Source: Candidatus Abyssobacteria bacterium SURF_5 (GTDB lineage Bacteria > Abyssobacteria > SURF-5). Taken from it: 64,000 nucleotides of DNA. Of the stretch, positions 37,457-41,518 are shown in pieces; positions within the stretch are counted from its first letter, which is position 1, and each line of letters opens with the position of its first letter. The notes under the pieces were generated by a model. That model was given only the letters and a program-made list of their open reading frames with translations, was not told the origin of the DNA and made no database searches. The DNA lies in the NCBI GenBank assembly GCA_003598085.1, contig QZKU01000144.1, positions 1 to 64,000 of the forward strand, given 5' to 3'. Both the position numbers and the translations under genes were made by a program.

Positions 37457-37491
37457 AAAGCTCCTTTCCAATGGGGTCAGTCTTACATTAT

Positions 37492-37614
37492 GATTCTGCT
37501 GCAAAACCCTCACTCTCGGGTTCAACCGCGCTATGGTAGGTGCGAATTTATTCGCACATTCAAGACTGGCCGAATGAATTCGGCCCTACCAAAGGGGGGC
37601 TCTGCAGTGGAATC
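37492..37614 (+). mobile_element. MITE copy 1 (123 bp, no coding capacity)
   Basis: The ends are imperfect inverted repeats: GATTCTGCTGCAAAACCC on the left, and on the right GGCTCTGCAGTGGAATC (reverse complement GATTCCACTGCAGAGCC). Inside are two palindromes, GTGCGAATTTATTCGCAC and GGCCGAATGAATTCGGCC, enclosed by GGTAGG...CCTACC. The element is flanked by a perfect 7-bp direct repeat, ACATTAT, a target-site duplication. Nearly identical copies lie at 38524-38651 and, inverted, at 41363-41485. Confidence 0.85.
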
Positions 37615-37696
37615 ACATTATTACGTTTTGCTAACGGAAGAAGCTGTTTGCCCCTGAAACGACACGTTTCGCTTTTATCTTGGAATCCAGTGCCTG

Positions 37697-38395
37697 TTAC
37701 GGCACCCAGAACGGCCCGGTTTTTCCGATCTCCCGCAGCGTGTTGAAGAATTCGGGCATGAATTCCTGCATGCGCGAAATGTAATCCGGCTCCATTCGCT
37801 TGCGGAAAAAATCGATCGAGAACAGTTTTACCAGGTCCGCCACCGGTATGATGCCCGCCTCGGTCGCGGGATCAAACTGCTTCCAGTTTCTCAGATGTTC
37901 TTCCGACCGGAAGAAGTTCATCGTGCTTCAGGCAAAGCCCGGATCTTGCATCCACGAGAAGAACGGAACGGAGACATGCCCGATGATCTCTTCAGGCTGT
38001 TTCTTGAGGATTTGACCGTCCTTGACCTCGACGTGGATCGGCTCGCCGCAATCGAGACAGGGAGAATCAATATTAATGATCTTGCCCGGAAAAAGCCAGC
38101 AGACTGCCAGCGACTCGAATGCTCACTGGCCAAACCATTTCTGAAGGCCGTCAATCGTGATTCGGTACTGGTTCTGCAGGTTGTGAAACGGGGCCATCGA
38201 AACCAGCAGGTCGGTCTTGGGGTAGAGCCAGCCGGGCACGCCCGAATTGATCAGGTTGTGCAGCGCCTGGCGCCCCTCCTCCATCGAAACCCCCAACTCC
38301 TTCGCGATTTGGGTGTAATGCGGCGCCTGTCCCGTTTCGACCATCCCTCTCATGATGATGTTGAACGTTCTGTCCAATTGCGTGGGTTCGGCCAT
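37697..38395 (-). CDS. Candidate double-selenocysteine alkylmercury-lyase (MerB)-like protein; two in-frame TGA codons
   Basis: One frame of 232 codons runs from the ATG at 38395 (AGGAGG just upstream) to the final stop, interrupted only by TGA at codon 91 (38123-38125) and codon 156 (37928-37930). The translated parts match the alkylmercury lyase fold: an N-terminal winged helix (HYTQIAKELGVSMEEGRQAL), then FGQ-[TGA]-AFESLAVCWLFPG, SPCLDCGEPIHVEV, and GFA-[TGA]-STMNFFRSEEHLRNW. By my by-eye alignment to MerB from memory (WCALD and FCCHVHFFAS), the TGAs fall on catalytic C96 and C159, and Glu94 falls on D99. Spacing is 65 residues against 63. Each TGA is followed by a SECIS-like hairpin. No ribosome binding site precedes an internal ATG after the second TGA, which argues against separate genes. 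The alternative is a pseudogene with two nonsense mutations. TGA is an ordinary stop elsewhere in the window. Whether the substrate is organomercury is unknown. Confidence 0.8.
37898..37915 (-). promoter_or_regulatory. SECIS-like hairpin after the second in-frame TGA
   Basis: Minus-strand TTCTTCC-GGTC-GGAAGAA: a perfect 7-bp stem with loop GGUC, the loop starting 19 bases after the TGA. In the E. coli fdhF SECIS, recalled from the literature, a GGUC loop starts 18 bases after UGA and its G and U contact SelB. Confidence 0.7.
38095..38111 (-). promoter_or_regulatory. SECIS-like hairpin after the first in-frame TGA
   Basis: Minus-strand GCTGGCA-GTC-TGCTGGC: a 7-bp stem with two G-U pairs and a GUC loop that begins 18 bases after the TGA. 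The apex GCAGUCUGC is one base short of the fdhF apex GCAGGUCUGC. Confidence 0.65.
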
Positions 38396-38440
38396 ATGCT
38401 CATCCTCCTGTCCTTTGCCGCGACCTTTAAAGCCGCCGAA

Positions 38441-38469
38441 ATTATATGAGGTTTCGCTAACTATTTCAA
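38441..38469 (-). promoter_or_regulatory. Sigma-70-type promoter for the MerB-like gene
   Basis: On the minus strand TTGAAA (38464-38469), a 17-base spacer and TATAAT (38441-38446) lie 46 bases before the ATG. An intact promoter and ribosome binding site argue against a decaying gene. MITE copy 2 lies further upstream and leaves it intact. Confidence 0.75.
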
Positions 38470-38523
38470 ATCAAACCCGTTTGTGCAACTGAAACAAAGG
38501 ACAGCCGCCAAAAGTTCATGATA

Positions 38524-38651
38524 GATTCTGCTGCAAAACCCTCACTCTCCGGTTCAACCGCGCTATGGTAGGTGCGAATTTATTCGCACATTCAAGTCAA
38601 GACTGGCCGAATGAATTCGGCCCTACCAAAGGGGGGTTCTGCAGCGGAATC
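38524..38651 (+). mobile_element. MITE copy 2 (128 bp)
   Basis: Same orientation as copy 1, with a 5-bp internal duplication (TCAAG) that accounts for its extra length. It is flanked by CATGATA and CATGAAA, a 7-bp target duplication with one mismatch. It lies in the divergent intergenic region between the MerB-like gene and the lipoprotein gene and adds a spurious upstream reading frame to the latter. Confidence 0.85.
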
Positions 38652-38724
38652 CATGAAAAACTCCTTTTGGTTTATAATATGCAAAATCCGAATAATCCCG
38701 GGTCCATCGAATAGGAGGAGAATA

Positions 38725-39948: not shown

Positions 39949-41364
39949 ATGGCCCAAAGAGATGATATGCGCCGCTTCTTCTCGCCCCAATCGGTTGCCA
40001 TTGTCGGGGTCCCGCGCAAGCCCGACCGCTTCGGCGGCGGAAGCTTTCTGGCAAAACTGCTGGAATGCGGTTTTCCCGGAAAACTGTTCCCGATCAATCC
40101 GGGTGCGGACGAAATCCTCGGACTCAAGGCATATCCTTCTCTCTCATCGCTTCCTGTCGCGCCTGATCTCGTGATCGTTAGCGTGGCGGCCGCCCATGTT
40201 CCGGCAGTCCTCGAAGAATGCGCCCGCCTCGGCGTGCGGCACATTCATATCCTTTCATCAGGCTTCAAAGAGATCGGTACGGAAGAGGGCGGGCGCCTTG
40301 AGGAGCGGGTACGAAAGATTGCAGGCGAGATGAACTTGCTCATCATCGGCCCCAACTGCATGGGGCCATATTGCCCGTCCTCACGATTGACCGCCTGGGG
40401 CGCCATTCCCGGCATGAGCGGACCGGTCGGCGTCATCTCACAGAGCGGCGGTATCACGCAACGGCTGACGGAATACCTCTTTTCAATGGGAATCGGGACA
40501 GACAAGGCCGTCAGCATCGGGAATGCCGCCGTCCTGGATACTCCCGATTATCTTGAATTCATGGCTCATGATGAGAACGTCCGCGTAATCGCGATGTACC
40601 TGGAGAGTGTGGGCGACGGCAGGAGATTTTTTCAGTTGGCGCGCAGGATCACGAAAAGCAAGCCGATCGTGGTCTGGAAAGGCGGTGAGACAGGCGTCGG
40701 CGCCCGCACGGCGGCGTCCCACACCGGCACGCTCGCGGGTAATCATGCCCTATGCGAAGCCATGTTCCGCCAGAGCGGAATCACGCACGTGCGTTCTTTA
40801 CATGAATGGGCCGACGCCATCATAGCCTTTGCCTTGCTGCCGAAACCGCAGGGCAGACGGGTGTTCCTCATTGGCGGCGGTGGAGGCAACAGCGTCGGCA
40901 ACAGCGACACATGCATCAGGGAAGGCCTCGACGTGCCAAGGCTATCGGAAGCTAGTATGAACAGGCTTCGCGAAACTGTGCCGGTCGCGGGTTCCATCGC
41001 GGGCAATCCTCTTGATATGTGGCGCATATTCGACGACCCGGATTACCTGCTGGAAATCCTTGAACTGGCATATGACGAGCCGAACGCAGACATGCTTATT
41101 GTGGATCGTTTGATCCCCCGGAAGGCGTTCCACATGGAAGAACGGGCCGATGCGACGGCGCAGATCGCGAAGCTGATGAGAAAACACCTGCTCGAAAAAC
41201 CGACCGTTGTCACCGCCGACTCCGACGGCGGCGACCCGGAATTGGCGGCAAAGGGGGCGGCTCTGCGCGCCAAATTCACCAGCGCCGGCATACCAGCTTA
41301 TCCCTCGCTCCAGCGTGCCGCCCGCGCCCTCGCTCATCTATATCGATCCGGACGTCATCTTTGA
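39949..41364 (+). CDS. NDP-forming acyl-CoA synthetase, alpha-type (CoA-binding and ligase-CoA domains only)
   Basis: The product is 471 residues. The N-terminal CoA-binding Rossmann domain (FFSPQSVAIVGVPRKPDRFGG) is followed by succinyl-CoA-ligase-like flavodoxin domains with IIGPNCMGPYCP, GVISQSGGITQRLTEY, and the phosphohistidine motif SHTGTLAGN near residue 265. The ATP-grasp domain of full-length enzymes is missing, so a separate beta subunit would be needed to make acyl-CoA from acid and ATP or GTP. No beta gene is adjacent. The stop codon TGA is formed at the junction with MITE copy 3. Confidence 0.85.
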   Translation: MAQRDDMRRFFSPQSVAIVGVPRKPDRFGGGSFLAKLLECGFPGKLFPINPGADEILGLKAYPSLSSLPVAPDLVIVSVAAAHVPAVLEECARLGVRHIHILSSGFKEIGTEEGGRLEERVRKIAGEMNLLIIGPNCMGPYCPSSRLTAWGAIPGMSGPVGVISQSGGITQRLTEYLFSMGIGTDKAVSIGNAAVLDTPDYLEFMAHDENVRVIAMYLESVGDGRRFFQLARRITKSKPIVVWKGGETGVGARTAASHTGTLAGNHALCEAMFRQSGITHVRSLHEWADAIIAFALLPKPQGRRVFLIGGGGGNSVGNSDTCIREGLDVPRLSEASMNRLRETVPVAGSIAGNPLDMWRIFDDPDYLLEILELAYDEPNADMLIVDRLIPRKAFHMEERADATAQIAKLMRKHLLEKPTVVTADSDGGDPELAAKGAALRAKFTSAGIPAYPSLQRAARALAHLYRSGRHL

Positions 41365-41485
41365 TTCCGCCGCAGAACCCCCCTTTGGTAGGGCCGAATT
41401 CATTCGGCCAGTCTTGAATGTGCGAATAAATTCGCACCTACCATACCGCGGTTAAACCCGAGAGTGAGGGTTTTGCAGCAGAATC
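41363..41485 (-). mobile_element. MITE copy 3 (123 bp, inverted)
   Basis: Reverse orientation relative to copies 1 and 2, the same length as copy 1 and almost identical in sequence. It is flanked by ATCTTT on both sides (6-bp target duplication). The insertion point lies within the stop codon of the NDP-forming ligase gene. Without the element the reading would be CAT CTT TAG; with it, CAT CTT TGA. The protein is therefore unchanged. Confidence 0.85.
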
Positions 41486-41518
41486 ATCTTTAGGAGATGA
41501 CCCCGGCTCCGAATGCTC

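Follow-up and report, generated by a model that had tools for sequence, protein, structure and literature searches.

The stretch of DNA analysed here (64,000 nt, hereafter the window) carries a MerB-like gene with two in-frame TGA codons, and the question that it raises is whether the hairpin directly downstream of the first of these is the SECIS element by which that codon is read as selenocysteine (Sec). The hairpin at 38111-38095 is very probably a bacterial SECIS (bSECIS) for UGA 1 of a double-Sec MerB-like gene, to which SelB would bind so that Sec would be inserted at that codon. This reading is supported by the presence of the hairpin in all 16 intact type A homologues with TGA 1, by the third codon bases held in its stem, by its fit to the bSECIS model, by the Sec machinery of the genome, and by the GUC apex that recurs in other probable selenoproteins of the same genome. 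The features of the locus are listed in Table 1.

Table 1. Features of the MerB-like locus, with positions in the window
Feature	Position	Strand	Description
MerB-like selenoprotein gene (predicted)	37697..38395	minus	ATG 38395 to TAA 37697; 232 aa with U91 and U156 when TGA is translated as U
Shine-Dalgarno AGGAGG	38404..38409	minus	8 nt upstream of ATG 38395; read in the sequence
TGA 1 (predicted Sec91)	38123..38125	minus	by alignment with MerB Cys96
SECIS 1 (predicted)	38095..38111	minus	stem GCUGGC 38111-38106 / GCUGGC 38100-38095, loop AGUCU 38105-38101
TGA 2 (predicted Sec156)	37928..37930	minus	by alignment with MerB Cys159
SECIS 2 (predicted)	37898..37915	minus	stem UUCUUCC 37915-37909 / GGAAGAA 37904-37898, loop GGUC 37908-37905

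The hairpin in the window and its likeness to known SECIS elements

The sequence-only reading had described a 7-bp stem with two G-U pairs and a GUC loop, which is indeed found (GCUGGCA-GUC-UGCUGGC), and had placed the loop at the offset of its counterpart in Escherichia coli fdhF; 18 nt separate TGA 1 from the GUC loop, and the same 18 nt lie between the TGA and GGUC of fdhF in a stretch verified against E. coli genomes. Upon RNA folding, which that reading had proposed as a check, the hairpin is the centroid structure and part of the minimum-free-energy fold over the 37-50 nt that follow the TGA. Under the bSECIS model, the apical loop comprises 3-9 nt and the upper stem 4-16 bp, a G occupies loop position 1 or 2 and is usually followed by G or U, 16-37 nt separate the UGA from the apical loop, and the minimum free energy is at most -7.5 kcal/mol (PMC13188914). 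SECIS 1 falls within these limits with a 6-bp stem and a 5-nt loop or, in the window, with 7 bp and 3 nt if 38105 and 38101, the inner A-U pair, are counted as stem. The loop G is present, the sequence being A-GUC-U in the window and NGUNN across all 16 homologues; the spacing is 17 nt for the 5-nt loop or 18 nt for the GUC loop, and the energy limit is reached at 37 nt (-8.3 kcal/mol) and 50 nt (-9.9), the bare 17-nt hairpin folding at -6.9.

The sequence-only reading had also argued that the occurrence of a hairpin at exactly this place, under the constraint of protein coding, is informative. From the window alone this does not hold: the energy of the region is not below that of shuffled sequences (z = +1.4, 50 nt), so folding of one sequence was dropped as proof of SECIS 1, and among synonymous recodings that follow the codon usage of the family, 34% hold some strict bSECIS-like hairpin (stem of at least 6 bp), while the exact SECIS 1 register survives in 7-23% (about 19% for the window's gene). 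Since a single sequence thus shows nothing beyond chance, the position becomes informative only once homologues are added. No Rfam family matched above its gathering score in 37600-38500.

SECIS 1 and the fdhF element both lie directly 3′ of the UGA and share a small apical loop with an early G-U and a spacing of 17-18 nt (18 in fdhF). They differ in that SECIS 1 has two G-U pairs in its 6-bp stem and an NGUNN loop, has no conserved longer lower stem, and carries its G-U one base closer to the UGA. The match in offset noted earlier stands. In detail, however, part of the resemblance between the two apices is fortuitous, since conservation covers the offset, the stem and the loop GU but not GCAGUCUGC, and a shared fdhF-like apex, GCAG(G)UCUGC, was ruled out.

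Conservation of the hairpin among relatives

Relatives were sought with PF03243 or a type A profile in the three genomes of the window's own small phylum, in 400 genomes from the phylum to which the Chloroflexi relative L011 belongs, and in two of that phylum's classes. Intact type A genes with TGA at both places number 16 (L001, which is the window's gene, L008, L009, L011, L043, L045-L047, L085-L090, L093 and L095). Four further type A genes have Cys first and TGA second (L059, L091, L092 and L094) and are nested in the tree among the Sec/Sec genes, so they are most simply explained as losses of the first Sec. Five type B paralogues are again Sec/Sec (L002, L010, L044, L048 and L049), with a different SECIS 1 (CGCCCUU-CGUGC-AAGGGCG) whose outer pair is C-G, U-G or U-A. 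In ordinary MerB relatives both places are occupied by Cys. A scan of genome contigs yielded one relative only, and viral contigs gave no relatives. One of the type B genes, L002, is a second, distant Sec/Sec MerB-like gene of the same genome (G000:C38, 1468-2142, minus strand), with its own SECIS pair and a 26-nt spacing after TGA 1. A disrupted type A relative (L096, with an in-frame TAG and a frame break) retains 5/6 SECIS 1 pairs, its outer stem pair being A-U instead of G-C and one C-U mismatch lying within the stem.

All 16 intact type A genes with TGA 1, drawn from two phyla, carry, at an identical offset, a stem of 6 bp capped by an NGUNN loop of 5 nt, where synonymous recoding gives a chance expectation of about 13% per sequence for the stem, offset and loop GU together. 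The inner A-U pair is open in 10/15 distinct relatives, and the conserved element is therefore the 6-bp stem with the 5-nt loop; the 7-bp stem with its GUC loop, as first described, was ruled out as the conserved unit. The hairpin is present in every intact gene with TGA 1, and it, not a more stable alternative, is also the consensus fold. Covariation, which had likewise been proposed as a check, carries little information for SECIS 1 in type A: pairing is kept in 16/16, and the changes in the GCUGGC/GCUGGC stem are all one-sided and pair-keeping (G-U to A-U; G-C to G-U), yet no two-sided change occurs in intact type A genes and the score does not exceed that of shuffles, because the stem barely varies.

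Conservation of pairing could also follow from conservation of protein. The hairpin might be a by-product of the conserved peptide SLAVCWLF with no role as RNA, UGA 1 being decoded through some other element that was not seen; we consider this improbable. The peptide is indeed conserved, and the stem is kept in relatives with Cys at the first place, which do not need it. Third bases, however, behave in a manner that the peptide does not account for, since those of the stem are nearly frozen while those of Ala97 and Val98 (in the loop) and Leu101 (just outside the stem) vary. The third base is invariant in only 6/173 degenerate codon columns, namely column 95, which is the outermost base of the SECIS 1 stem, and columns 161-165, which lie within the second hairpin. 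On a tree built without columns 95, 96 and 99, the third bases of these three stem columns underwent 2 changes, as against about 15 for random triples, and none of 20,000 random column triples was as low. Residues 95 and 99 also switch only among codons that preserve the pairing base, residue 95 being Ser, Thr, Ala or Val but always encoded by NNG, and residue 99 being Cys, Arg or Ser but always encoded by NGY. Furthermore, bacterial Sec-UGA codons normally require a SECIS at about the distance of SECIS 1 (PMC13188914).

The chief weakness of the argument for SECIS 1 is that 4/4 genes with Cys at the first place retain its stem, from which it follows that the protein itself may account for some of the constraint, or that Sec was lost recently. 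The loop GU is lost in 2/4 of these genes (Val to Ile or Met), versus 0/16 of those with Sec at the first place. In sum, pairing is conserved in the Sec homologues beyond what the protein demands, with two-sided changes absent from intact type A genes, and a bSECIS serving UGA 1 is the preferred reading.

Sec machinery of the genome and the probable second SECIS

The genome encodes SelA (588 bits), SelB (381 bits, with winged-helix domains), SelD and a tRNA-Sec with anticodon UCA, selA and selB adjoining each other on contig 41. In-frame TGA codons are also found in the genes for SelD (L125, G000:C42) and the formate dehydrogenase alpha subunit FdhA (L129, G000:C113), which are thus probable selenoproteins. 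The hairpins that follow these codons have the apices G-GUC-U (FdhA) and G-GUC-C (SelD), and those of the MerB-like gene A-GUC-U and C-GGUC-G.

SECIS 2 begins its loop 19 nt after TGA 2, in a stretch that encodes FFRSEE. In an alignment of 35 distinct sequences, from which L057, L076, L077, L099 and L101 were excluded because their downstream stretch is unrelated, 96% of cells are paired, and three pairs show two-sided changes (17 such cells); none of 500 shuffles attained the covariation score of this alignment. The motif F(F/L)RSEEH, which results from the SECIS 2 codons, is common in Sec forms and was seen in no Cys form; the RNA signal appears to have shaped the protein sequence here.

A large Chloroflexota group of MerB-like genes combines Cys at the position of Cys96 with TGA at that of Cys159 (L028, L032, L034, L037-L039, L042, L050-L056, L058 and L098-L101), and most of its members carry the GGUC hairpin, L099 and L101 being without GGUC. 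Three other MerB-like genes (L057, L076 and L077) have TGA at the Cys159 place followed by unrelated sequence, apparently as separate gains; L076 and L077 share a hairpin, UCCGGC/GCCGGA, in place of the GGUC one.

Two further explanations concern the TGA codons themselves. That the gene is broken, TGA 1 being a true stop, an error of sequencing or the mutation of a pseudogene, agrees with the translation under table 11, in which the frame ends at residue 90, but is scarcely credible given that both TGA codons recur in two phyla, among 16 type A and 5 type B homologues with conserved protein downstream, and that ordinary MerB relatives carry two Cys there. Genome-wide reassignment of TGA to Trp or Gly (codes 4 or 25) would likewise yield in-frame TGA, but its likelihood is negligible, as the families searched in this genome contain TGA only in the MerB-like genes (two), FdhA and SelD, with none in the other 18 molybdopterin matches, SelA or SelB, and the Sec system is complete.

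A MerB-like protein with two predicted selenocysteines

The encoded protein matches PF03243 with 73.7 bits (cut-off 27), and its AlphaFold model (pLDDT 91) adopts the MerB fold, with structural matches scoring Z 17.4 against MerB2 and 15-16 against crystal structures of MerB; every unrelated chain scored lower. MerB has Cys96, Asp99 and Cys159 as its catalytic residues (PMC4525700, PMC8261052), and in the alignment their places are taken by U91, E94 and U156. The protein therefore shares with MerB (PF03243; PDB 3f0o, 5c17) the fold and three aligned active-site positions, but its Sec/Glu/Sec in place of Cys/Asp/Cys makes it MerB-like and not a canonical MerB; both NCBIfam MerB models score below their cut-offs (37.1 bits against 193, and 34.1 against 200). 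SaoL of the SAO system (NF040728) is also a MerB-related selenoprotein, but it is listed with a single Sec, located in a CU motif (PMC13188914), unlike the two of the present protein, which scores 40.8 bits against the SaoL cut-off of 140; five further type A or B relatives score 35-49 bits. No MerA match above cut-off was found in the genome. Ten homologous loci share no conserved neighbours within a few kb of the gene, which ruled out an SAO or mer operon context.

SECIS 1 supports TGA 1 as a Sec codon and thereby the replacement of the two catalytic cysteines in a lyase of the MerB type. In the proposed scheme, SECIS 1 would fold in the mRNA just 3′ of the UGA at 38125-38123, SelB with GTP and Sec-tRNA-Sec would bind its G-U apical loop, and selenocysteine would be delivered at UGA 1 in place of termination, the UGA at 37930-37928 being served by the second SECIS. 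The product would be a stand-alone protein of MerB fold in which Sec91 and Sec156 replace the catalytic Cys96 and Cys159, and Glu94 replaces Asp99; in a MerB-like reaction, its two selenolates may bind and protonolytically cleave an organometal such as an organomercurial. More broadly, we tentatively suggest, as a possibility that falls somewhat short of probable, a separate family of MerB-fold enzymes in which two selenolates, situated where MerB has Cys96 and Cys159 and accompanied by Glu instead of Asp99, cleave organometals without MerA or an operon, and whose two SECIS elements shape the protein through their pairing (at the RSEE motif that follows the second Sec, and at residue 99 with its NGY codons).

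The SECIS elements are of a known kind, and the double-Sec MerB-like family, which also occurs in Chloroflexota, appears to be undescribed: a 2026 review lists only the one-Sec SaoL as a MerB-like selenoprotein (PMC13188914), an earlier description of a double-Sec form elsewhere being possible. Standard annotation truncates such genes. The family supplies the same active site in natural Sec/Sec, Cys/Sec and Cys/Cys forms, so that the question of why selenium serves metal-carbon chemistry becomes directly testable. Copies of a dispersed repeat, about 126 nt long, lie on either side of the gene in the window (37490-37615 and 38524-38656), with a third, inverted copy at 41358-41487; the repeat is possibly a REP-like or small mobile element.
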